DNA of 64,000 bases from Calditrichota bacterium (GTDB lineage Bacteria > Calditrichota > Calditrichia > RBG-13-44-9 > J042), in the NCBI GenBank assembly GCA_013150955.1, contig JAADJD010000059.1, positions 46,857 to 110,856 on the forward strand, given 5' to 3'. Every line of letters begins with the position of its first letter. Within the stretch, counting starts at the first letter, position 1. The notes under the pieces are model-generated. The model searched no databases. It was given only the letters and a program-made list of their open reading frames with translations, and was not told where the DNA came from. The position numbers were made by a program, and so were the translations under genes. This document shows positions 3,379 through 39,663 of this stretch, in pieces.

Positions 3379-4622
3379 GGCGCCTTTTCACCTCCCTGAT
3401 TTTCCAGATATTGAATGTAGGTGGACATGTCCTTATCCCCGCGCCCACTTAAATTGACCACCACAATCTGATCCGGGTGTGTGGTGGGTAGCAGCCGATC
3501 CAGGTAGGCCAGGGCGTGGGCGCTTTCCAGTGCCGGGATGATCCCTTCCAGCCGGGCCAGTCGAAATGCTGCCTGCAGTGCTTCCTGATCGGTGACCTGG
3601 GTGTAAGTCACGCGTTTTTGTTCCTTCAGAAAACTGTGCTCCGGGCCCACACCGGGATAATCCAGGCCAGCGGAAATGGAATGGGGTAACTGGATCTGGC
3701 CATCGGCAGTTTGTAACAGGTAAGTCTTCATGCCATGAAAAATGCCCGGACGACCCCGCGAAAGGGTGGCCGCGTGGTGTGGGGTGTGAACACCCAATCC
3801 ACCGGCTTCAACACCAATCATCTGGACGTCTGGAGACGATAGAAATGGGTAGAACAATCCCATGGCATTGCTGCCTCCGCCCACGCAGGCAATCAGGAAG
3901 CTGGGCGATGGGTGTCCCAGAGCCTTGAGTTGTTCCTGCACTTCTTCTCCAATGACTTTTTGAAAATACCGCACGATGAGCGGAAACGGGTGCGGCCCCA
4001 CCACCGATCCAATGATGTAATGAGTTGTAGCCACATGGGTGAGCCAATCCCGCAGCGCCTCGCTGGTTGCATCCTTAAGCGTTCGGGTACCGCTGTGCAC
4101 GGCTCGGACTTTGGCACCCAGCATGCGCATCCGTTGAACATTGGGGAATTGGCGTTCCATATCCTCCGCCCCCATGTAGATGCAGCAGTCCATCCCGAAG
4201 CGGGCAGCGACCGTGGCTGTGGCCACGCCGTGCTGGCCGGCACCGGTTTCGGCAATGATCCGTTGCTTGCCCATGGCGCGGGCCAGTAAAATCTGCCCGA
4301 TGGTGTTGTTGATTTTGTGTGCCCCGGTATGCAGCAGGTCTTCCCGTTTCAGGTAGATCCGGGCTTTTCCGTAATAGCGGGTTAAATTGCGGGCAAAATA
4401 CAGGGGCGTGGGACGTCCGGCATACGTGCGCAACTCCTGCCGAAACTCCTGTTCGAAGTCCGGATCGGTGCGCAGCCGGTTAAATGTGGTTTCCAGCTCT
4501 GTCAGGGCCGGTCGCAGAATTTCGGGTACAAACTGGCCGCCAAATTCGCCAAAGTATCCCCGTGCATCAGGCCACTGATCGATCGGGGATGATGGATGAG
4601 GAGGTGCCGATGGTCTGCTCAT
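3375..4622 (-). CDS. trpB: Tryptophan synthase beta subunit
   Basis: [35 protein letters not shown] motifs. Confidence 0.98.
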
Positions 4623-25723: not shown

Positions 25724-25752
25724 TTGCATTTTTTGAGTGAATCCCGTATATT
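25724..25752 (+). promoter_or_regulatory. Probable sigma70-type promoter
   Basis: TTGCAT - 17 nt - TATATT. Confidence 0.6.
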
Positions 25753-25758
25753 TTCGGA

Positions 25759-25936
25759 TCAAAAAATAGGAGGGTGCATATAGGGAGAATTGTTAAGGAT
25801 ACGGAATGTTTTTGTTAATGATAACTAAATCGTTTCAATGAATAATTGTTTGAAAAATATCCTTAACAATCATGCACCCGCAAAATGGCGCCGAATGATA
25901 CGTGTGGGTGATGAACACACGTCATTCGGTTTTTTT
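25759..25936 (+). ncRNA. Candidate structured leader RNA / attenuator upstream of porV (or stand-alone ncRNA)
   Basis: Nested arms GGGTGCAT(25772-25779)/ATGCACCC(25872-25879) and ATTGTTAAGGATA(25789-25801)/TATCCTTAACAAT(25858-25870), then an intrinsic terminator directly before the porV RBS. Confidence 0.6.
25891..25936 (+). terminator. Intrinsic terminator immediately upstream of porV
   Basis: CCGAATGA-ta-CGTGTG-ggtgatgaa-CACACG-TCATTCGG followed by TTTTTTT. Confidence 0.85.
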
Positions 25937-25964
25937 ATGCAAATAATTTTCAGGAGGTTCTGAT

Positions 25965-27056
25965 ATGAAAAAGGTAGTGGTAATTTCATTCTTATCGATG
26001 GTGATGCTGTTGAGCAGTTTCTCCCCGGTGTTTTCCCAGGGGGAAGCGACGGCTTTGTTCTTATTGATTAATCCCGGTGCCCGTCAGGGAGGTATGGGGG
26101 AAGCCGGTGTGGCCCTGGCCAACGATGCAAGTGCCGTTTACTGGAATCCCGCCGGTCTGGCCTTCCAGTACAACGATCCCGAAGTGGATAATCTGGGAGA
26201 AGCCACATTGATGCATGTGCAATGGCTACCCCAATTTAACCTGAGCGACCTGTATTACGATTTTGCCGCCGCTCGGTATTATTTGCCCGACATCGGGACG
26301 GTGGGTTTGGCCATTCAATTCATTAATTATGGGGAAAACATTCAAACGAATGACAAGGGTGATCCAATCGGTCGATTTAACAGTAACGAGGTAGCGGTCA
26401 CAGCGAGTTACGCCGTAAAGGCAAATTCTAATCTGGGTGTTGGGGTAAATCTCAAATATATTTACTCCAACCTGTCGCCGGGTATTTTTGTCGATAACGA
26501 ACGCCGGGAAGGGCGGGGAACTTCGTTTGCGGTAGATCTGGGTGTGCTGTACTATCCATCGTTTGCTCCCAAATTGAGCCTGGGTTTGAACATCTCCAAC
26601 ATCGGTCCCAAAATGACCTACATCGACAAGAAGCAGGCCGATCCCCTGCCGACCAACTTGCGGGTCGGGCTGGCTTACAAAATTCTGGATTCTCAGTACA
26701 ATCGGTTTACCCTGGTGTATGATGTGAACCGCCTGTTGGTTCGACGCTACAAGGATGGAACATCCGACAATGTGCTGAAGGCCATGTTTTATTCCACCTG
26801 GACGGAAGGCGACGTGTCCACCCAGTTTAAGAAATTCACCCATTCCATTGGGTTTGAGTACTGGTACACCGACCTGATTGCCCTGCGTTGGGGATCCTTT
26901 TATGAAGATCCCAGCAACGGTGGACGGAAATTCTGGACATTTGGTGGCGGGGTGCGCTATTCGTTTATCGGGGTGGATTTCAGCTACATCTATGCTTCCA
27001 TCGAGGATCATCCACTGTCCGATACCATGCGCTTTTCCCTGACCATCCGGTTCTAA
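25965..27056 (+). CDS. porV: PorV/PorQ-family outer membrane protein
   Basis: Signal peptide; NPGARQGGMGEAGVALANDASAVYWNPAGLA motif; C-terminal barrel strand ending in F. Confidence 0.82.
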   Translation: MKKVVVISFLSMVMLLSSFSPVFSQGEATALFLLINPGARQGGMGEAGVALANDASAVYWNPAGLAFQYNDPEVDNLGEATLMHVQWLPQFNLSDLYYDFAAARYYLPDIGTVGLAIQFINYGENIQTNDKGDPIGRFNSNEVAVTASYAVKANSNLGVGVNLKYIYSNLSPGIFVDNERREGRGTSFAVDLGVLYYPSFAPKLSLGLNISNIGPKMTYIDKKQADPLPTNLRVGLAYKILDSQYNRFTLVYDVNRLLVRRYKDGTSDNVLKAMFYSTWTEGDVSTQFKKFTHSIGFEYWYTDLIALRWGSFYEDPSNGGRKFWTFGGGVRYSFIGVDFSYIYASIEDHPLSDTMRFSLTIRF

Positions 27057-27087: not shown

Positions 27088-27117
27088 CCCCGGACCGCAT
27101 GTGTCCGGGGTTCGTTT
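27088..27117 (+). terminator. Possible terminator downstream of porV
   Basis: CCCCGGAC-cgcatgt-GTCCGGGG then TTCGTTTT. Confidence 0.6.
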
Positions 27118-27148: not shown

Positions 27149-30124
27149 ATGAAACGATCGATCTTTCGGCGCGGCGCGGGATTCCTGCTGGCCAGCTTTC
27201 TCATCCTGCAACCGTTCTTAACGGCGAGTGTTCCGGATACCATTCGGGTGCTGGCGATTCGGGTGGAATTTCAGGAAGATACCGATGAAACCACCACAGG
27301 CAACGGCAAATTCGATTTAAGTCAATCGGACGATCCGTTTCAGATTGATCCCCCACCGCACAACCGACTGTATTTTGAGGATCACCTGCTGTTCCTGAAA
27401 AATTATTACTGGAAGGTCAGCCGCGGGCGTTTGCTGGTGCTGGGAGAGGTCTTTCCGCGGGAGATTGATGCGGCCTATCAATTGCCGCAAAAAATGGCGG
27501 CTTATAATCCCAACACCACTCCCGATGAGATCAATCGCGGTCTGGCAAATTTGTTCCGGGATGCGCTACTGGCCGCGGCAGAGGATCCAGAAATCGATTT
27601 CCGCCGTTACCAGAGCGTGATTGTGTTCCACGCCGGTGTGGGCAAGGATGTGGATCTGGGCTTCGATGCTACCCCCCAGGATATCCCTTCACTTTTCATT
27701 ACCCGGCAGTTTCTGCAGCAGTACCTGGAAGCGGATGGGGTGCCGGTGAAAGACGGTGTGGTGATTTACGATGGCATCATCCTGCCGGAAACCGAAAGCC
27801 AGGATGGCTACCAGCTGGCGTTGAATGGCATTCTGGTGGCCAATTTTGCCTCCCAGCTGGGCTGGCTGGATTTGTTTAATCCCAAAACTCACCGCAGTGG
27901 CATCGGGCGTTTTGGGCTTATGGATGCCGGCCTGTTCAATGGGGATGGCCTGTTACCGGCACTGCCTTCTGCGTGGACGCGCATTCAGGCGGGATGGGAA
28001 ACCGCCTACACCGTCTACCATGCCCAGGATGAAGAACTTCAGCTGCACTGGGTGCTCTCCAATCGCGAGCCGCGGGTGTATCGATTCCCCATCAACGAGA
28101 GGGAATATTTTCTGGTGGAGAATCGGTACGCCGGGGAAATGAATCTGGACAGTCTCCAATACGTGATGGCTCAATCGCGGGAAAGTCTACCCAATATGAA
28201 GGAAGTGCTGTTGACCTACTTTCCGGATGCAGTGACGTTTAGCGTGCGGGGGGTGTTGATCGATGTGGACAATCCGGATCGCGGTTTGCCGGGCAGCGGC
28301 ATTTTAATCTGGCACATTGATGAAAACGTCATTGCAGCCAAGCGGGCAGAAAATCGGATCAATGATGATGATCGGCATCGCGGGGTGGATTTGGAAGAGG
28401 CGGATGGTTCCCAGGACATTGGGCAGGTGTTCGATTTTTTTAGTGCTGGCGCCGGTTCGGAGATTGGCACGGTGCTGGATCTCTGGTACGAGGGCAATCC
28501 CGCCCCGGTGTTTAAAAACGAATTTTCTCCGAATACCTTTCCCAACAGTCGCAGTTATTACAATCGTGCCAACAGTCACATCAAACTGTCACACTTTTCG
28601 CGTCCCGATTCGGTCATGACCTTTCGGGCCCGGCTGGACATCTACCAATCCCGTTTCCCGCTGCAGCTGGATGGTCAGCTGCTGGGGCGGCCTCTATCGA
28701 TAAAGATGGCCGATATCACCGATGCGCCCGGAGAGGAAATTTTGATTCTGACGGATCGCAACCGGCTGGTGTTGCTGGAAAATCCCGAAGACGCTACCCA
28801 TCCCCTGCAACCGATTGTTTACGAATCCAGTGGAGAAGTGATCTCACCCCCGGCGGTGATGACCGCACCGGATGGTCAGCGGATTGTGGTGCTGGCCCTG
28901 CGGGAAGGCCGCATCCTGCTGTTGCGGGTGGTAAACGGCTTGCTTCAGCTCCAGACCGGGGTGTCGATCGGGGATTCGGTTTGGACATTTCCGGTGGTGG
29001 ATGACCGTTTTGACCGGAATGGGGATGCACGGGTTGATCGCATTTTTGTGGGAACCGCCTCCGGGCGAATCTGGAAGATCCAGGCAGATGGGCAAACGCA
29101 GGCCATCTTCGATATTGGCGAGCCGGTGGTTCATCTGTTAATCAGCGATGAGAATCGCCTGTGGGCGGTTGGCAGAACGGGGCGGGTCTACCTGAATGGC
29201 GAGGAAGCGTTTTCCCTTCCCGCGAATGCCCATCTTCCTGCAGGCAATGTCCCCCTGGCCGCCACTGCTGATGGTCAGTTCATCCTGCTGGAACAGCCCG
29301 ATGAAAAGGCGGCCATCGAAACGGTTTACCCGGTTTTTTCTCCACCCAGCCAGTTTTACGATGAAAATTATCAGCTGCACTTTGCCCTGGGGAGCGACAA
29401 TCGCCTGCTGGCGGTTTCCGGGAATCTGGCCATGAAAACCAACTTTCCGGTAACCCTGTACCGTCCGTATAAACCTGCCCCGTTGCGGTTTCAGCCATTA
29501 ATTGGGGTTTTATCCGCGGAGGATGGGCCGGGGATTGTGGTTGTGGATGAAGCAGGGGTGCTGGATGCCTTCGATTTTCAGGGAGAACGGCTGGCGGCTT
29601 TTCCCCTGTCGGTGGGTGATTCCATTGCCACCACGCCGGCGCTGGGAGATTTCGATGGGGATGGCGATGTGGAGCTGGTGGCCATCACCCGAAACGCCCG
29701 CGTTTATGCCTGGGATTTGACCGGAGCGGTGGATCCCGAAAGCCGGGGAACGTACTGGATGCAGGAATATGCCAACCCGTATAATCAGAATCGGCTGGAA
29801 CCGGTCACCGTTAATCAGGTGGCGGTGGTGCGGGATGTGGAGTTGTTGCCAGCCGAACGGGCCTATTGCTGGCCCAATCCCAATCAGGAGGATTTCACCA
29901 TTATTCGCTACTGGCTGGCCGAGCCGGCCACTGTTTCCATCCGGGTGTATGATCTGGCAGGTGAACTGGTGGATGCATTTACCGGCCCCGGAAATGGGGG
30001 AGTGGATAATGAAGTCCGCTGGGATCTTGCAGACATTCAAAGTGGGGTGTACTTTGCCCGTATTCAGGCAAAATCGGCCCGGCGGGAAGCGGTTCAGATT
30101 ATTAAAATTGCCGTGGTAAAATGA
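27149..30124 (+). CDS. Secreted M6-like (pseudo)metalloprotease with FG-GAP-like repeats and T9SS type A-like C-terminal domain
   Basis: M6 context (LDLFNP...SGIGRFGLMDAG...PSAWTRIQAGW) but HEFGH replaced by ANFAS; GDFDGDGDVELV; C-terminus NPNQEDFTIIRYWL..VSIRVYDLAGE...SGVYFARIQA. Confidence 0.75.
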   Translation: MKRSIFRRGAGFLLASFLILQPFLTASVPDTIRVLAIRVEFQEDTDETTTGNGKFDLSQSDDPFQIDPPPHNRLYFEDHLLFLKNYYWKVSRGRLLVLGEVFPREIDAAYQLPQKMAAYNPNTTPDEINRGLANLFRDALLAAAEDPEIDFRRYQSVIVFHAGVGKDVDLGFDATPQDIPSLFITRQFLQQYLEADGVPVKDGVVIYDGIILPETESQDGYQLALNGILVANFASQLGWLDLFNPKTHRSGIGRFGLMDAGLFNGDGLLPALPSAWTRIQAGWETAYTVYHAQDEELQLHWVLSNREPRVYRFPINEREYFLVENRYAGEMNLDSLQYVMAQSRESLPNMKEVLLTYFPDAVTFSVRGVLIDVDNPDRGLPGSGILIWHIDENVIAAKRAENRINDDDRHRGVDLEEADGSQDIGQVFDFFSAGAGSEIGTVLDLWYEGNPAPVFKNEFSPNTFPNSRSYYNRANSHIKLSHFSRPDSVMTFRARLDIYQSRFPLQLDGQLLGRPLSIKMADITDAPGEEILILTDRNRLVLLENPEDATHPLQPIVYESSGEVISPPAVMTAPDGQRIVVLALREGRILLLRVVNGLLQLQTGVSIGDSVWTFPVVDDRFDRNGDARVDRIFVGTASGRIWKIQADGQTQAIFDIGEPVVHLLISDENRLWAVGRTGRVYLNGEEAFSLPANAHLPAGNVPLAATADGQFILLEQPDEKAAIETVYPVFSPPSQFYDENYQLHFALGSDNRLLAVSGNLAMKTNFPVTLYRPYKPAPLRFQPLIGVLSAEDGPGIVVVDEAGVLDAFDFQGERLAAFPLSVGDSIATTPALGDFDGDGDVELVAITRNARVYAWDLTGAVDPESRGTYWMQEYANPYNQNRLEPVTVNQVAVVRDVELLPAERAYCWPNPNQEDFTIIRYWLAEPATVSIRVYDLAGELVDAFTGPGNGGVDNEVRWDLADIQSGVYFARIQAKSARREAVQIIKIAVVK

Positions 30125-30141: not shown

Positions 30142-33100
30142 ATGTTGATGCATGAAAAAATATGGTGCAGCACAAAGCCTCTGTGGCGGATGGCGAAGCG
30201 GAAAGGGCAAACTTTTTCCAGCTGGGTTCGAATCCTTTTGCTGGCTATCGGGGTGGCGGGATGGTGGTTTCCGACTCCGGGCACGGCTCAACCGGGGCAG
30301 AGCAATCATCCCGAACTGCGCTGGCAAACCATCGAAACCGAACATTTTCTGATTCATTACCACCAGGGAACCGAGCGCACAGCAAACGTCGTGGCCCGGA
30401 TTGCCGAGGAGGTCTACCCCCACATCACCGGTTTGTATCAGTATGAACCGCCGAAGAAGGTTCACATCATTATTCGGGATACGGACGATTATTCCAATGG
30501 CGGTGCCTACTTTTTTGACAACAAAATCGAGATCTGGGCGGAGAATCTGGACTACGTTTTGCGCGGTACCCACAACTGGCTGCGGGATGTGGTGACCCAT
30601 GAATTCACTCACATCGTTTCCATCCAGAAATCATTGCGATTTAGCCGGAAGATTCCGGCGGGCTGGTTTCAGGTGTTTGGTTACGAAGAAGTCCGCCGGC
30701 CGGATGTGGTGCGCGGTTTTCCTGATGTGCTGGTTTCGTATCCCATTTCCGGGGTGAACATTCCCGGTTGGTTTGCCGAGGGCGTGGCCCAGTTTCAGTC
30801 GCCCTCCCGACGGTACGATTATCGGGATTCCCACCGGGAGATGATTTTACGGGATCGGGTCATGACCGGCAAGCTGCTGGATCTGAAGCAAATGAGCGTG
30901 TTTGGAAAAAACAGTGTGGGGAACGAATCGGTTTACAATCAGGGGTTTGCGTTTGTCGAATTTTTAACGGCGCAATTTGGGGACAGCATTGTGAAGGACA
31001 TTGCGCGGCTGGCCTCCAATCCCTTCTCTTTGAAATTTAATCAGGCGCTGGAGAAGGCCACCGGCGTGCCGGCCGATCAATTGTGGGCCACCTGGAAAAC
31101 GTATCTGGAAAACACCTATCGGACGCGACTGGCCACCATCCTGCAACATCCAGTGGTGGGTGAGCCGGTGGACACCCTGGGGATTGGGAATCTGTACCCC
31201 CGCGTCTCACCGGATGGGCGCTACCTGGCCTATGTGGCCACGGGGAAGTCGGATTATCTTTCCCTGAACCATCTGGTCATTCTGGATTTGAAAACGGGTA
31301 AGAAAAAACGGGTGAGCAGCCGGATCACTTCCTCGCTCAGCTGGTCGCCAGATGGCCGCTATCTGGTCTATTCCCGCAAAGTGAAGGTACAGCCCAATGG
31401 CAGCCGATTTAACGATCTGTACGTTTACGATGTGCAAAACGATCGGGAAATTCAGATCACCGATGCCTTACGGGCGCGCAATCCGGACTGGTCTCATGAC
31501 GGGCGCCGGCTGGTGTTCGTGGTGGGTGCAGATGGTCTGGCCAATTTGTACACGCTGGAGTGGGAACGCCTGGAGTCCCTATTACAGGAAAAATCCTGGA
31601 AAACCCTGTATTATCATCTGACGGAACACCGGGTGGTGGAAGCCCTGCCAGAAGACGCCGGAAAAGACTGGCAACTGAATTACCGAAAGGCTCGAATCCG
31701 TGGGGGGCAATTGCGGCAGATTACGCGCTGGATGAATGGGCGCCAGTTCTATCATCCCCGCTGGTCGCCGGACGATCGGTATATTTTTGTGGATACGTCC
31801 ATCGGGTTTGGACGGGACATTGTCCGCGTCGATCCTCAGACGGGAGAGATGACTCCGGTTTTAAACAGCGTCTGCGATGAGCGGTATCCCACATTCCACC
31901 CCGGTACCGGAGAATTGTTTTACGCCTGCGACGAAACAGGCATTTTCAACATCTATTCGCTGGATTTGAACACCGGCGAAAAACATGCCCATACCAACGT
32001 GGTCGGTGGGGCATTTATGCCGACGATTTCTCCCGAGGGAGACATGTATTATTCCCTGTATCGGCATCAGGGATACAAGATTTTTCAGGTGCCCCAGGTG
32101 AATGCTGTCCCCATGGAATATCTGACCTATGATGCCGATTATGAAAGCAAAATTCCCCGATTGCAGGTGGATGATCGACTCACCAACGCGTTGCCGGCAT
32201 CTACTTATCGACGCCAGTTTCCCGGGTTCTTCATGCCTCGCCTTTTCTTCGATTACGGTACCTTCAAACCCGGGTTTTACTTCGTCACCGATGACATTTT
32301 AAGCAAGCTGTCCTTTCTGGGTGGTGCGGCGGTCAACCGCTACTGGGAATACGACATTTACGCCTTCTTCGATTTAAAGTTGTGGAAGCCTACCGTGTCT
32401 GTGGGCGTGTATAACATCACCCGCAAAATCCAGGACAAATTTAGCGATCCCTTTTATGTGACCGGAGATTCCATTGAAATCAAATTCGATTTGCTGGAAG
32501 CGGAGTTCACGGTTCGGCATCATTTGTGGAACAAAGTGGACTGGCGGCTCAGCTACATCTTTCGGCAATACAAGGCGCGGATCGGAACCTTTGCGGTAAA
32601 GGAACTGGCAACCAATCGGGTGTTTGTGGTACCGCCCGTTCGTTACACCTATTTGAAAGGCCACATCATCAGCCTGTGGCTGCGTTATAAACGCCTGCCG
32701 TTGAATCTGGAAAGCGATATCAATCCCGTGAAGGGACGCTACATTACCCTGCGCATCAATCGGGAATGGAATCGATTTCTGGAAGATTTTGCCACCGATC
32801 GTGCGGTGGGGCTGGAAATTTTTAAGCCGGTAAATTTCACCCGTTTTGAATTGGATTGGGAAGAGTATCTTCCGGTGCCGTTTTTAAAATACCACACCCT
32901 GGATTTACGCATGCAACTGGGCTATATTGACCGTCCAGTAGATAGTTTCTTTTATTTCTTCGCCGGTGGATTGGTGGGCTTAAAGGGCTATCCCTATTAT
33001 TCCATTGAAGGGCGAACCATGGTCATCGGCACCGCCATTTACCGATTCCCCATTTCCCGTCAGATGAATCTGGAAATTGGACAGGTGCATTTTAACAAAC

Positions 33101-33375
33101 TGTATCTGGGTGCCCTGTTTCAGTATGGCAACGCCTGGACGGGGCGATCCATCCCCTGGAAGGATTTTCGTTCCAACGTGGGCATTCAATTGCGGCTGGA
33201 TGCCTTTTCCTGGTACCTGTTCCCCACGCGGGTATTCTTCGAGGCGGTTTATCCGCTTCAGGAGCATGAGTATCGTGGGGTACGTTATCCCCGCAAATGG
33301 AAATATTATCTGGGTGTGTTATTTGATTTCGATTTACGGTTCGATAGAAAGGGGTTTATGCCATGGGTAAGATGA
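30142..33375 (+). CDS. Gluzincin-like peptidase domain (HEFTH) + WD40-like beta-propeller + C-terminal surface-antigen/barrel-like region
   Basis: DVVTHEFTHIVS, WFAEGVAQFQS, PD40-like repeats (SPDGRYLAYV, SWSPDGRYLVYS), D15-like C-terminal region. Confidence 0.75.
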   Translation: MLMHEKIWCSTKPLWRMAKRKGQTFSSWVRILLLAIGVAGWWFPTPGTAQPGQSNHPELRWQTIETEHFLIHYHQGTERTANVVARIAEEVYPHITGLYQYEPPKKVHIIIRDTDDYSNGGAYFFDNKIEIWAENLDYVLRGTHNWLRDVVTHEFTHIVSIQKSLRFSRKIPAGWFQVFGYEEVRRPDVVRGFPDVLVSYPISGVNIPGWFAEGVAQFQSPSRRYDYRDSHREMILRDRVMTGKLLDLKQMSVFGKNSVGNESVYNQGFAFVEFLTAQFGDSIVKDIARLASNPFSLKFNQALEKATGVPADQLWATWKTYLENTYRTRLATILQHPVVGEPVDTLGIGNLYPRVSPDGRYLAYVATGKSDYLSLNHLVILDLKTGKKKRVSSRITSSLSWSPDGRYLVYSRKVKVQPNGSRFNDLYVYDVQNDREIQITDALRARNPDWSHDGRRLVFVVGADGLANLYTLEWERLESLLQEKSWKTLYYHLTEHRVVEALPEDAGKDWQLNYRKARIRGGQLRQITRWMNGRQFYHPRWSPDDRYIFVDTSIGFGRDIVRVDPQTGEMTPVLNSVCDERYPTFHPGTGELFYACDETGIFNIYSLDLNTGEKHAHTNVVGGAFMPTISPEGDMYYSLYRHQGYKIFQVPQVNAVPMEYLTYDADYESKIPRLQVDDRLTNALPASTYRRQFPGFFMPRLFFDYGTFKPGFYFVTDDILSKLSFLGGAAVNRYWEYDIYAFFDLKLWKPTVSVGVYNITRKIQDKFSDPFYVTGDSIEIKFDLLEAEFTVRHHLWNKVDWRLSYIFRQYKARIGTFAVKELATNRVFVVPPVRYTYLKGHIISLWLRYKRLPLNLESDINPVKGRYITLRINREWNRFLEDFATDRAVGLEIFKPVNFTRFELDWEEYLPVPFLKYHTLDLRMQLGYIDRPVDSFFYFFAGGLVGLKGYPYYSIEGRTMVIGTAIYRFPISRQMNLEIGQVHFNKLYLGALFQYGNAWTGRSIPWKDFRSNVGIQLRLDAFSWYLFPTRVFFEAVYPLQEHEYRGVRYPRKWKYYLGVLFDFDLRFDRKGFMPWVR

Positions 33376-34268
33376 GCGTCATTATTTTATTTGCCGGGTG
33401 GTTGGCCACGCTACAGGCGTCCCGCCCCCTGCCCGTAGCCGATCAGGTGTTGTTACACCGCTACACCATTCTGAGCCAGGTGAAGGCCAATGTCCAGCAG
33501 GAACTGGAGCAGCGGGAATCTGCGGATGGAAAGAAGAAATCAATACCTCGCGCGGTGATGCTGTCTGCCGTGTTACCGGGTGCGGGTCAGTTTTATGCGG
33601 GCTCCTATGTTAAATCCATTCTCTTCCTGACGGTGGAAGTGGCTGCCTGGGTCATCAACGTGCGGTACAATCGCCTGGGAGATAAAAAAGATGCCGAGTT
33701 CCGGGCGTTTGCGGATAAGTACTGGGATGAAAGGCGGTATTGGTCATATCTATATTATCGATTACTGGAAGATGGTGTAGAATTACCATTTAGTTTTGAA
33801 AGGAAACTTGAGAATAAGGAGAAATATTGGTATTTGATTGTTGAAGAACAATATCCAGAAGCCAGGCGATTGTTGCGGGATTACGAAAACGTATTACCAG
33901 GTTTTACCCATCGTTTACCAGAAAAAAGTGAAGATCCCCAGCAGTATTACGAAATGATTGGAAAATATCCGGGACAGTTTGGCAACGCCTGGGCGGATGC
34001 CAGTTTTCTTGTAGAATACAGCGGCTACGAGGGGCGAGTCACACCGTTGAATGAGAAATACGTGCAGATGCGCAACGAAAGCAACCGCTACTTCGATATT
34101 GCCGGCTACGGGGCCATGGTGGCGCTGGTGAATCATGTAATTTCCGCCATCGATGCGGGATTTACCACCCGGAACCTGAACCGAAAACAGCAGGTGAAGC
34201 TCAGTTACAAAAATATTTATTATCCCGGCGAATACGTTAACATGCTGGGACTGCAGATGGAGTTTTGA
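33363..34268 (+). CDS. DUF5683-like envelope protein
   Basis: AVMLSAVLPGAGQFYAGSYVKSILFLTVE core motif. Confidence 0.6.
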   Translation: MGKMSVIILFAGWLATLQASRPLPVADQVLLHRYTILSQVKANVQQELEQRESADGKKKSIPRAVMLSAVLPGAGQFYAGSYVKSILFLTVEVAAWVINVRYNRLGDKKDAEFRAFADKYWDERRYWSYLYYRLLEDGVELPFSFERKLENKEKYWYLIVEEQYPEARRLLRDYENVLPGFTHRLPEKSEDPQQYYEMIGKYPGQFGNAWADASFLVEYSGYEGRVTPLNEKYVQMRNESNRYFDIAGYGAMVALVNHVISAIDAGFTTRNLNRKQQVKLSYKNIYYPGEYVNMLGLQMEF

Positions 34269-35089
34269 TCTTTCAAGATTGTTGTGTGAATCACGAATCG
34301 TGGAAAAACAGGATGATTAAGTTAGAAGGTCGCATGCAAAGGATCGGGCGGTTAAAGTGGATGCTGTTAGGCGGATGGCTGCTGGTGCTGTGGATGGGAC
34401 ATCTCCAGCCGGCACCCGCTGCGGGTGGCTCTCTTAAAAATGCCCAATCGGCGTTTACTTTCCACGCGGTTTCCCTCGATGAAACCGGGGAAGCAATGAC
34501 TCCGCAGCGGAGCGGTGCCCGTGCCATCCTTTTGTCGCTCATTTTGCCCGGTGCCGGAGAGTGGTCGCTGGGACACCGGCGGATGGCCAAAATCTTTCTG
34601 GGCGCAGAAGTGGCCCTCTGGGCGGGTTATTTTGGCAGTCTGGCCTATGCCGAGGTCTTGCGGCGGGATTATCAGACCTTTGCGGCCCTGCACGCCGGGG
34701 TGAATCCCGCTGGAAAGGATGATCAATACTGGATAGACATCGGCAATGCCAATAATATTTACGATTTCAATGAAAAACGACTGGTGCAACGCAACCTGGA
34801 TGCCGTTTATATGAATACCCGGGAGTACTACTGGCAGTGGGATGCTGAGGAGAATCGGTACCGCTATGTGGACTTGCGGCTCAAACAGCATCGCTGGAAA
34901 CGCAGGGCAACGTTTGTAATCGGGGGAATGATTTTAAATCGGATTTTAAGTACGGTGGATGTGATCCGAATTATTCGGAAAGAGAAGAAAGAAAGGGAAA
35001 CCGGACGCCGGGCCATGTTGTTTAGCAGTTACTTCTGGCACCCGGCCCGTGGAGATGTCGTTCAACTACATTTTACATGGACGTTTTGA
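34265..35089 (+). CDS. DUF5683-like envelope protein, paralogue of preceding gene (true start may be at 34313)
   Basis: RAILLSLILPGAGEWSLGHRRMAKIFLGAEVALW; overlaps previous CDS. Confidence 0.55.
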   Translation: MIFQDCCVNHESWKNRMIKLEGRMQRIGRLKWMLLGGWLLVLWMGHLQPAPAAGGSLKNAQSAFTFHAVSLDETGEAMTPQRSGARAILLSLILPGAGEWSLGHRRMAKIFLGAEVALWAGYFGSLAYAEVLRRDYQTFAALHAGVNPAGKDDQYWIDIGNANNIYDFNEKRLVQRNLDAVYMNTREYYWQWDAEENRYRYVDLRLKQHRWKRRATFVIGGMILNRILSTVDVIRIIRKEKKERETGRRAMLFSSYFWHPARGDVVQLHFTWTF

Positions 35090-35090
35090 T

Positions 35091-35966
35091 ATGGAACGGG
35101 TATATATCACCGGTGCATCGGGATTTCTTGGACGCTATTTATTAAAATATGCGCCAAAGCCCTATCGGGTGCTGGGGCAGTATCGGCAACATCCGGTGCG
35201 GGCATTTCAGGGGCATGTGCAGGTGGTGCAACAGGATTTACTGGCCAATGACTGGAAACCGCTGTATAACTTTGCCCCTCAGGCCATGATTCACACGGCA
35301 GCGCAGGCCTCCATCGATGCCTGTCAGTTGCATCCAGACGATGCCTGGGAGATCAACTATCGCACCACCTGCAAACTGGTTGATGTGGCCAGAGAGCTCA
35401 ATGCCCGCTTTATTTTTCTGTCCTCAGATGTCATTTTTGATGGGCAGAAAGGCGATTATCAGGAAGAGGATCCACCCGTGCCCCTGAACGTTTATGCCGA
35501 AACGAAAGTAGCGGCGGAACAGTACATCCTGGAACATCATCCCGATGCGGTGGTTGTCCGCCCGGCCCTGTTTTATGGCCAGTCGCTGAATGGTCGACCT
35601 TCCTTTACCGAAGTGATGTACAAAAACCTGAAGGCCGGGAAGTCGGTGTATCTGTTTACCGATCAGTATCGCACCCCCGTGCTGGTGAACAACCTGGCCA
35701 CGGCGCTGTGGGAACTGGTGGAATCGGACTATCAGGGAATTTTACACATCGGAGGCAGCCAGAAGGTCTCCCGCTATGAGATGGGATTGATTCTCTGTGA
35801 GGTGTTTAATTTGCCGCGGGATTTGATTATCCCCATCCCTTCCGATCAGGCCAATCAGGCCGCCCCCCGTCCGCGGGATTGTTCTTTAAACATCGGTCGG
35901 GCGCGCTCGGTGCTGAAAACCCGATTGCTGGATGTGCGTTCGGGATTAAATCTGGCGTTTCATTAA
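35091..35966 (+). CDS. SDR-family sugar-nucleotide reductase/epimerase (RmlD-like)
   Basis: MERVYITGASGFLGRYLL, AAQASIDACQ, FLSSDVIFDG, VYAETKVAAE (YxxxK). Confidence 0.85.
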   Translation: MERVYITGASGFLGRYLLKYAPKPYRVLGQYRQHPVRAFQGHVQVVQQDLLANDWKPLYNFAPQAMIHTAAQASIDACQLHPDDAWEINYRTTCKLVDVARELNARFIFLSSDVIFDGQKGDYQEEDPPVPLNVYAETKVAAEQYILEHHPDAVVVRPALFYGQSLNGRPSFTEVMYKNLKAGKSVYLFTDQYRTPVLVNNLATALWELVESDYQGILHIGGSQKVSRYEMGLILCEVFNLPRDLIIPIPSDQANQAAPRPRDCSLNIGRARSVLKTRLLDVRSGLNLAFH

Positions 35967-35990
35967 GGGCTGCACCTGGTCGCTGTTTAA

Positions 35991-36106
35991 ACCGGATTAT
36001 GCATTAGACCACGAATTGTACGAATTAACACAATTAAAAATAATCAAATACATTGGATCAGATCTGGATGAAAATTCGTTTCGAGGTTTAATGCATTATT
36101 TGGGAT
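35991..36106 (-). repeat. Dispersed palindromic element, internally deleted, flanking hairpin array
   Basis: CCGGATTATGCATTAGACCACGAATTGTACGAATT...GAGGTTTAATGCATTATTTGGG. Confidence 0.78.
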
Positions 36107-36108
36107 TA

Positions 36109-39100
36109 TTTTGCCCTTTCAGGGCGGAGGGGATTTGTGGTTTTGGGACGTTCCCATTACCAGGGGCGTTGCCCCTGGCTATCCTATCTTGCCCCTTCGG
36201 GGCGGGGTGGATTTATGCTCTGGAGGGTCTCCCTATTGCCTGGAACGTTCCCCCGGGTTACCCAATTTTTGCCCCGTTGGGGCGCATTTGCCCGAAGGGC
36301 AAAAATAGGGCAGCCCCGTGCAGGGCGCGGGGGACACGTGGTGCAGCCCGATAATTCATCTGCTGCCTGAAGGGCAGCGATAGAATTGGCCCGTTTCCGG
36401 GGCATGGGTAATGTTTGTTGGGGCTTCCCAATCACCGGGCAATGGTTATTTTGCCCTTTCATGGCGAAGGGGATTTGTGGTTTTGGGACGTTCCCACTAC
36501 CAGGGGCGTTGCCCCTGGCTATCCTATTCTGCCCCTTCGGGGCGAGATGAAACGGGTGGTTCTTTCTGTTTTCCGTTGAAAATTAATTCGTATGGTTTTC
36601 CTGAATCCCGGGGGCCGGTATTTTGCTCTTTCGGGGCGCATTTGGATTTATGCTCTGGAGGGTCTCCCTATTGCCTGGAACATTCCACCGGGTTACCCAA
36701 TTTTTGCTCCGTTGGGGCGCATTTGCCCGAAGGGCAAACAGATGGTAGCCCCGTGCAGGGCGCGGGGGCACGTGATATCCACCGATCCATCCGCTGCCTG
36801 AAGGGCAGCGATAGATTTTGCCAATTTCCGGGGCATGGGTATTGTTTGTTGGGGGTTCCCAATCACCGGGCGATGGTTATTTTGCCCTTTCAGGGCGGAG
36901 GGTATGGATTGGGTCGGCTCCACTACCAGGGGCGTTGCCCCTGGCTATCCCGTTTTGCTCCTTCGGGGCGGGATGAAATGGGTGGTTTTTTCTGTTTTTC
37001 CTGGAAAATTCACATGGTTTTCCTGAATCCCGGTGGCCAATATTCTGCCCCTTCGGGGCGCGTTTGGATTTATGCTTTGGAAGGTCTCCCCATTGCCAGA
37101 AACATTCCCCTGGGTTACCTAATTTTTGCCCCGTTGGGGTGCATTTGCCCGAAGGGCAAAAATAGGGCAGCCCCGTGCAGGGCACGCGGGCACATGATAC
37201 CCACCGATAATCCATCTGCTGCCTGAAAGGCAGCGATAGAATTGGCCCGTTTCCGGGGCATTGGTAATGTTTGTTGGGGGGGGCAATCACGGGGCGATTG
37301 CTATTTTGCCCTTTCAGGGCGGAGGGGATTTGTGGTTTTGGGACGTTCCCACTACCAGGGGCGTTGCCCCTGGCTAACCTATTCTGCCCCTTCGGGGCGC
37401 GTTTGGATTTATGGTTTGGAGGGTCTCCCTATTGCCAGAAACATTCCCCTGGGTTACCTAATTTTTGCCCCGTTGGGGTGCATTTGCCCTAAGGGCAAAA
37501 ATAGGGCAGCCCCGTGCAGGGCGCGGGGGGCACGCGATACCCACCGATTCATCAGCTGCCTGTAGGGCAGCGATAAATTTTGCCAATTTCCGGGGCATGG
37601 GCGTTGTTGGTTGTGGGTTTCCCAATCACCGGGCGAGTGCTATTTTGCCCTTTCAGGGCGGAAGAAATTTGTGGTTGGGGGCGGCTCCGCTACCAGGGGC
37701 GTTGCCCCTGGCTACCCTGTTTTGCCCCTTCGGGGCGCGTTTGGATTTATGCTTTGGAAGGTCTCCCCATTGCCAGAAACATTCCCACAGGTTACCCATT
37801 TTTGCCCCGTTGGGGCGCATTTGCCCGAAGGGCAAACAGATGGTAGCCCCGTGCAGGGCGCGGGGGACACGTGGTGCACCCCGATGATCCATCTGCTGCC
37901 TGAAAGGCAGCGATAGAATTGAACAATTTCCGGAGCGATTGCTATTTTGCCCTTTCAGGGCGGAAGAAATTTGTGGTTGGGGGCGTCTCCACTACCAGGG
38001 GCGTTGCCCCTGGCTATCCTATTCTGCCCCTTCGGGGCGAGATGAAACGGGTGGTTCTTTCTGTTTTCCGTTGAAAATTTCCGTTGAAAATTCGTATGGT
38101 TTTCCTGAATCCCGGGGGCCGGTATTCTGCCCCTTCGGGGTGGGATGAATTTATGCTCTGGAGGGTCTCCCTATTGCCAGGAACGTTCCCCCGGGTTACC
38201 CAGTTTTTGCCCCGTTGGGGTGCATTTGCCCGAAGGGCAAAAATAGGGCAGCCCCGTGCAGGGCACGGGGGGCACGTGATACCCACCGATAATCCATCTA
38301 CTGCCTGAAAGGCAGCGATAGAATTGGCCTGTTTCCGGGGCATGGGAATTGTTGGCCGAAATTACCAATCACCCGGCGATTGCTATTTTGCCCTTTCAGG
38401 GCAAAGGGGATTTGTGGTTTTGTGACGTTCCCATTACCAGGGGCGTTGCCCCTGGCTATCCTATCTTGCCCCTTCGGGGCGCATTTGGATTTATGGTATG
38501 GAGGGTCTCCCTATTGCCAAAAACATTCCCCCGGGTTACCCAGTTTTTGCCCCGTTGGAGTGCATTTGCCCGAAGGGCAAACAGATGATAGCCCCGCGCA
38601 GGGCGCGGGGGTACGTGATACCCACCGATAATCCATCTGCTGCCTGAAGGGCAGCGATAGAATTGGCCCATTTCTGGAGAGGTTGCTATTTTGCCCTTTC
38701 AGGGCGGAGGGGGTGGATTGGGTTGGCTCCATTACCAGGGGCGTTGCCCCTGGCTATCCTATCTTGCCCCTTCGGGGCGAGATGAAACGGGTGGTTCTTT
38801 CTGTTTTCAGTTGAAAATTCGTATGGTTTTCCTGAATCCCGGTGGCCGGTATCTTGCCCCTTCGGGGCGCGTTTGGATTTATGCTCTGGAGGGTCTCCCT
38901 ATTGCCAGAAACATTCCACCGGGTTACCCAATTTTTGCTCCGTTGGGGCGCATTTGCCCGAAGGGCAAACAGATGATAGCCCCGTGCAGGGCGCGGGGGC
39001 ACGTGATACCCACCGATCCATCCGCTGCCTGAAGGGCAGCGATAGAATTGGCCCGTTTCCGGGGCATGGGTATTGTTTGTTGGGGGTTCCCAATCACCGG

Positions 39101-39283
39101 GCCATGGTTATTTTGCCTTTTCAGGGCGGAGGGGATTTGTGATTTTGGGACGTTCCCATTACCAGGGGCGTTGTCCCTGGCTATCCCGTTTTGCCCCTTC
39201 GGGGCGGGATGGATTTATGCTCTGGAGGGTCTCCTGGGTCTCCGGGTCACCCGATTTTGCCCTCTTGGGGCACCCCATCATCT
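36109..39283. repeat. Tandem array of ~8.5 hairpin-rich units (302-441 bp)
   Basis: Units begin TTTTGCCCTTTCAGGGCGGA at 36109, 36449, 36880, 37304, 37643, 37945, 38386, 38689 and 39111 (last partial). Each carries GC-rich palindromes such as CCAGGGGCGTTGCCCCTGG, GCCCCTTCGGGGC and TGCCCGAAGGGCA. Confidence 0.95.
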
Positions 39284-39290
39284 GGTGGGA

Positions 39291-39632
39291 TAAACCCAGA
39301 TGATACATTAATTCACAAATGACACGAATGAACACCAACAACAATAATAAACCCAAATTATGCAATAAACCGCGAATCACGCGAATGAAACCAAAAAATT
39401 TCGGCAAAATCGCAAATAAACACTAAAACACATTTTCATCCAGACACAATCCAATGTATTTTATTGGTTTTATTTGTGTTCATTCGTGTCATTCGTAGGC
39501 GAATGCTTAATCTGGGATAAAAATTCACTTGATCCTATCTGGATGAAAATATTTTCCTGAATATACTCGCTATTTTGTTGATATGATTCGAATTCATTCG
39601 CGTGATTTGTGGTTTAACGCATTATTTGGGAT
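39291..39632 (+). repeat. Dispersed palindromic element, composite (full copy ~39349-39516), flanking hairpin array
   Basis: AACCCAAATTATGCAATAAACCGCGAATCACGCGAATG...TTCGTGTCATTCGTAGGCGAATGCTTAATCTGGG. Confidence 0.87.
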
Positions 39633-39663
39633 AATGGGTCTGTTCTCGAACGACGAATTTGGG

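Follow-up and report, generated by a model that had tools for sequence, protein, structure and literature searches.

A candidate cis-acting leader RNA of the T9SS genes porU and porV in Calditrichota and related phyla

Introduction

A Calditrichota genome (4.07 Mb in 66 contigs) supplied the 64,000-nucleotide stretch of DNA analysed here, referred to as the window. In it, a structured RNA that ends in an intrinsic terminator lies between a promoter and porV, a gene of the T9SS outer-membrane shuttle protein family. Does this RNA act in cis on porV, or is it a product in its own right that merely shares a promoter with the gene? A first-pass annotation of the window, made without database searches, had proposed a new regulatory leader with the geometry of an attenuator or riboswitch, placed at the head of a six-gene operon, and had named a divergent 6S RNA as the main alternative. 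We compared the locus with its counterparts in related genomes and in other phyla to determine which reading the sequences support. Most of the sequences come from metagenome assemblies.

Results

Architecture of the porV leader

All features described here lie on the plus strand. The promoter (25724-25752), read from the sequence, consists of a -35 element TTGCAT (25724-25729), a 17-nt spacer and a -10 element TATATT (25747-25752). This -35 element is weak by consensus (3/6) and was not called by a generic promoter scan; a promoter of the type TTG(A/C)NN-17-TA(T/A)ATT occupies the equivalent place in 37/37 Calditrichota leaders. From the inferred transcription start to the end of the U-tract, the leader RNA spans about 175 nt (25760-25936).

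Two helices organize its 5' part. The P1 5' arm, GGGTGCAT (25772-25779), is a perfect 8-bp complement of the P1 3' arm, ATGCACCC (25872-25879), and the P2 5' arm, ATTGTTAAGGATA (25789-25801), pairs perfectly over 13 bp with TATCCTTAACAAT (25858-25870). Between the helices lies an asymmetric internal loop with 9 nt on one side (25780-25788) and 1 nt on the other (25871), and P2 encloses an AU-rich apical loop, 56 nt long in the window (25802-25857), that varies in length and sequence across the alignments. A conserved UAU (25779-25781) opens the segment that carries this internal loop (25779-25788), which stands out by column conservation and is mostly unpaired in the predicted fold. Together with the GC that follows it, the P1 3' arm (25872-25881) contains CACCCGC, the target of the terminator loop discussed below.

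The intrinsic terminator (25891-25936) is built from a CCGAATG/CATTCGG stem (25891-25929), an inner stem and seven T residues (25930-25936); its loop segment (25903-25913) is complementary to 25869-25882. The porV ribosome-binding site, CAGGAGG (25951-25957), follows 15 nt past the U-tract, and the porV ATG is at 25965. The promoter, the 8-bp and 13-bp arms with their 9-nt versus 1-nt asymmetry, the loop of about 56 nt, the terminator and the ribosome-binding site at 15 nt had all been described in the first-pass annotation and held base for base. Its claim that no room remains for a promoter after the terminator held as well, as the distance from the U-tract to the ribosome-binding site and ATG is too short and shows no sign of one.

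Conservation within Calditrichota

We read the DNA preceding porV orthologues in the source genome and 36 relatives. All 37 leaders share the promoter, a GGAG..GC.TATA stretch or a close variant of it, an TTTGTTAA(A)GG arm, a variable AU-rich loop, a complementary arm, a terminator at the equivalent place and an SD.

A GGAG near the 5' end of most leaders, followed in a few by a start codon, could point to ribosome-mediated attenuation, in which translation of a leader peptide would govern the terminator. This explanation is very unlikely, as the 37 leaders have no SD-placed start codon at a common position or in a common frame, and the apical loop varies in length with no relation to codons.

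A covariance model built from the Calditrichota porV leaders (R1) found one locus per genome, directly before porV, in 37/40 genomes of the phylum. The leader was present at porV in 23/23 genomes that were at least 90% complete, and the three misses were incomplete assemblies. R1 was trained on these same leaders, so the result bears on copy number and linkage and is not an independent discovery. Minus-strand matches arose from the palindromic character of the leader, mirrored on the other strand. We considered whether the leader is a repeated element and rejected this, as it is single-copy in the source genome. One weak second match away from porV was seen in another genome, on a different contig (G039:C112:1962-2129, plus strand; E 0.008, 31.8 bits).

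Upstream of the leader lies nuoN, both in the window and elsewhere in the order to which it belongs; many other families have a Trm112-like gene there. Because the upstream gene changes while the adjacency of leader and porV stays, the leader travels with porV.

Folding and covariation

The first-pass annotation had called for a fold of the RNA and a search for covarying stems in relatives. The leader folds at -53.7 kcal/mol against -37.3 ± 4.0 kcal/mol for shuffled sequences (z -4.07), with 0/200 shuffles as good, and its stems proved to be conserved with covariation. Across 30 diverse leaders, P2 was paired in 90.9% of cells, compensatory changes occurred in 5/11 P2 pairs and 3/6 terminator pairs, and 48 cells were double-changed (shuffles, 16.8; slid controls, no more than 10). 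In the rest of the class (22 leaders), P2 was 97.5% and the terminator 89% paired, with 19 double-changed cells (shuffles, 5.9; slid controls, no more than 7). Within the window's own order, P2 was 98.4% paired; P1 was paired in only 73.5% of cells, with two pairs showing compensatory changes, and is therefore less constant than P2.

Outside the pairing, conservation in the 30 diverse leaders peaks at the UAU, where each of the three columns (25779-25781) is conserved in 29/30. The UAU and the internal loop could thus form a recognition site, a suggestion inferred from the sequence and without binding data behind it.

Complementarity of the terminator loop to the leader

In the window, CACCCGC (P1 3' arm plus GC) complements the loop sequence GUGGGUG (25904-25910), with a predicted duplex energy of -17.6 kcal/mol. 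Outside the window's order the partners differ: GUCUACC, just 5' of the P2 3' arm, complements GGUAGAC in the terminator loop, and 4/5 pairs show compensatory changes. Leaders matched their own terminator loops better than those of swapped species, both in the window's order (p 0.0017 for 14 leaders; p 0.0046 with one per genus) and in the rest of the class (p<5e-5, also with one per genus). Complementarity was computed over the whole inner terminator rather than the innermost loop only. In Calditrichota the swap tests were thinned to one sequence per genus without a full phylogenetic model, and the Ignavibacteria set described below was not thinned. On this sequence evidence, the complementarity between terminator loop and leader is real.

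We also considered a simple nested antiterminator as a general mechanism and rejected it. When the 5' arm was masked, the terminator was predicted to be lost or nearly lost in only 6/37 leaders (L018, L026, L028, L029, L036 and L039); that of the window stayed formed (0.98), as it did in most other leaders. It may be that the loop-leader pairing forms a pseudoknot rather than a competing antiterminator.

Homologues at porU and porV in other phyla

In KSB1 genomes, R1 also detected the leader immediately upstream of porV. Its matches in Bacteroidota and Kryptonia lay some 4.2 kb ahead of that gene, with porU, which encodes the T9SS sortase (NF033707), in between; the leader therefore heads a porU-porV operon in these genomes. 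Homologues that head porU were found in Ignavibacteria, Kryptonia and other Bacteroidota, and in three loci (L057, L066 and L093) the porU ATG lies 3-9 nt past the U-tract. Each KSB1 or Bacteroidota genome with a significant match had one match.

A wider covariance model (R2) was run on 39 whole genomes of a phylum absent from its training and returned two matches, each lying ahead of PorU (E 4e-10 and 1e-9). The E-values of such purpose-built models are rough, and the spread of the leader was assessed without Flavobacteriia and Bacteroidia.

Two further observations concern possible relatives. Upstream of porU or porV in Balneolales/Rhodothermales (L071, L103, L120 and L127), CGCCTAT/TTGCCTAT...GTTAC(G) elements resemble the 5' element of the leader; these short elements could be a further spread of the family, although they rest on resemblance only, without statistics. 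Locus L068 (3619-3794 and following) carries P2 and a terminator-like hairpin that lacks a U-tract and has an ATG inside it, and it might be a mixed translational form.

Pairing with the porU coding region

The Ignavibacteria leaders have the promoter and the 5' element (GGAGAAAUUAUAGAG.UUUUGCUAC), and the terminator is absent. Here the porU coding region itself provides the partner of the 5' element, with pairing that begins at about its nucleotide 5. Over 20 Ignavibacteria species, the helix between a leader and its own porU codons averaged -23.2 kcal/mol versus -16.8 kcal/mol for swapped partners (p<5e-5, z -8.2); later coding sequence, used as a control, gave -10.1 kcal/mol. Four examples were folded: L106 and L112 fell far below shuffles, with the AUG region itself paired, and L082 (z -3.2) and L074 (z -2.3) were only moderately below them. 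The output in Ignavibacteria is probably translation initiation, as inferred from these sequences.

In a Kryptonia locus (L075), the 3' arms of P1 and P2 both fall within the predicted porU coding region. The P1+P2 stem of this locus (3712-3852) ends in TTTTTT inside that predicted region; perhaps the stem is itself the terminator, or the annotated porU start is wrong.

These comparisons show that one 5' element, the near-invariant UAU with P2, serves different expression platforms: a terminator in Calditrichota and KSB1, and occlusion of the porU codons in Ignavibacteria and Kryptonia. Riboswitches, and protein-bound leaders as well, exchange platforms in this way.

Two rival explanations can be judged at this point. 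In the first, the product is the terminated 175-nt RNA itself, acting in trans as an sRNA, and porV is expressed by constant leak-through from the shared promoter. The strong terminator and the compact, structured RNA speak for it, and the loop pairing could belong to a stand-alone fold. Against it, the leader stays with porV/porU even where the upstream gene or the phylum differs, and the genomes searched yielded no further significant copy. In addition, the leader makes sense only in cis in Ignavibacteria and Kryptonia, because its 3' arm sits in the porU coding region. We consider this explanation unlikely, although the 175-nt RNA, once released, might still act in trans.

The second holds that the leader is constitutive, its structure stabilizing the mRNA or setting a fixed level of expression, with no sensing involved. 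In its favor, no ligand or regulator has been found, and most folds keep a stable terminator whether or not the 5' arm is present. However, the near-invariant, mostly unpaired UAU and the primary-sequence conservation of P2 exceed what a plain stem needs, and the replacement of a terminator by start-codon occlusion suggests control. This explanation, too, seems improbable to us.

Comparison with known RNA classes

The first-pass annotation had recognized no known riboswitch consensus, and this held: an Rfam scan of the window returned no family, riboswitch or leader class at the gathering score, and a permissive scan of the leader (E up to 10) gave only chance-level matches, none of them significant. 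Scanning twelve related loci yielded no class and only one unrelated tRNA.

The reading as a divergent 6S RNA (RF00013) failed. The leader resembles 6S RNA in its length of about 175 nt, its long hairpin with an asymmetric internal bubble and its terminator. However, a separate, bona fide 6S RNA lies elsewhere in the source genome (G000:C6:74711-74892; 67.4 bits, above the Rfam cut-off), 28/40 Calditrichota genomes have a 6S match, and the leader is tied to porV/porU and gives no 6S score of its own. The presence of a separate 6S RNA in the genome and in most of its relatives excludes this alternative.

The literature searched, which did not cover many subscription papers and preprints, yielded no RNA element ahead of porU or porV. 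The genome paper of Caldithrix abyssi mentions, in the sections bearing on its Rfam scan, only B12, TPP and Moco riboswitches (PMC5317091). In Flavobacterium psychrophilum, a T9SS-bearing relative, 64 structured 5' transcribed regions have been reported, some of them attenuators, and a PorU promoter is listed among the data (PMC9723704); a porU/porV leader RNA was not found in the relevant sections of that paper, supplements not covered. Within Rfam and the literature searched, the family has most likely not been described before.

Genes downstream of the leader

The identity of porV (25965-27056) rests on matches to PF19572 (6e-26) and NF033709 (4e-92); it also matches NF033710 at 2e-71, just below the cut-off of that model. 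Downstream follow a T9SS-dependent M6-like inactivated metalloprotease (27149-30124; NF052323, 4.9e-188), a TolB-like propeller/peptidase MA/Omp85-like protein (30142-33375; profile matches) and a DUF5683-like protein (33363-34268; match below the curated cut-off). A second small membrane protein that resembles the preceding DUF5683-like one (34265-35089; open reading frame only) and a dTDP-rhamnose-reductase-like (RmlD-like) protein (35049-35966; open reading frame and sequence pattern only, with the true start probably near 35088) complete the series.

The proposed six-gene operon thus held in part: there are six genes in one direction, but their joint control is not shown. The 92-nt gap between porV and the M6 gene contains a GC-rich terminator-like hairpin (27088-27110), which might cut porV off from the other genes of the presumed operon; the gap folded whole was no better than shuffles. 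Control by the leader of genes past porV is plausible and remains undemonstrated.

Beyond these genes, the window contains a gene-poor block of about 3.6 kb (35960-39650) with long, diverged direct repeats, present in 8-9 copies 340-430 nt apart and 60-95% identical. A 271-aa open reading frame (36411-37226) is derived from these repeats.

Discussion

Structure, conservation, covariation, linkage to porV/porU and the terminator are established by the sequence evidence. The locus has the features of a cis-attenuator: a promoter, a structured leader, an intrinsic terminator before the first gene, no other promoter, compensatory changes and linkage to the same gene. The attenuator or riboswitch geometry first proposed is therefore supported, but without expression data actual regulation of the terminator is not shown. 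The pairing of the terminator loop, the link to porU outside the phylum and the version built into a coding region were not part of that proposal. We conclude that the RNA is most likely a cis-acting attenuator or translation-control leader of the T9SS porU/porV operon and a member of a new family across several phyla, a conclusion reached without expression data.

In the mechanism that we propose, transcription would start from the promoter at 25724-25752, and the nascent RNA would fold into the two-part P1+P2 hairpin, with the UAU of the 5' strand in the asymmetric internal loop, followed by the terminator. PorV would be made only by read-through. An unidentified agent, either a protein or a small molecule, is inferred to recognize the UAU, the internal loop and the 5' strand of P2. 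It would shift the balance among the hairpin, the loop-leader pairing and the terminator and so set the level of read-through, whether up or down being unspecified. In Ignavibacteria, the same 5' element would pair with the first porU codons instead, and translation initiation would be controlled. The gene content around the leader suggests no ligand or binding protein.

Two kinds of known system come close. Like transcription-attenuating riboswitches and orphan candidates, the leader has a conserved 5' domain, a terminator directly before the first gene and, possibly, alternative pairing, and its expression platforms differ by clade (terminator or start-codon occlusion), as those of riboswitches do. 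Unlike them, it has no ligand or Rfam family match, its conservation lies mostly in one long helix and the UAU rather than in a multi-helix junction, and it is attached to secretion genes instead of a metabolic pathway. The second kind comprises protein-bound attenuator leaders (ribosomal-protein leaders, PyrR and TRAP-type). These likewise act in cis through a terminator or start-site occlusion, carry conserved sequence in a helix and an internal loop, and consistently precede one particular operon. The porV leader differs from these in that it has no known binding protein and is not an Rfam leader family.

A bolder reading, which we offer as a possibility only and without ligand-binding data, is that the family is a new riboswitch class over Calditrichota, KSB1, Ignavibacteria, Kryptonia and related phyla. 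Under this reading a small molecule tied to the envelope would set production of the PorU-PorV sortase and shuttle, through terminator and start-codon-occluding versions of the same element.

The retention of one leader ahead of porU/porV in several phyla would mean that post-initiation control of this T9SS biogenesis step is ancient and under selection. One recognition element appears to be used with two outputs, the second of them built into the porU coding sequence, and this orphan element is now open to testing for a ligand or a protein.
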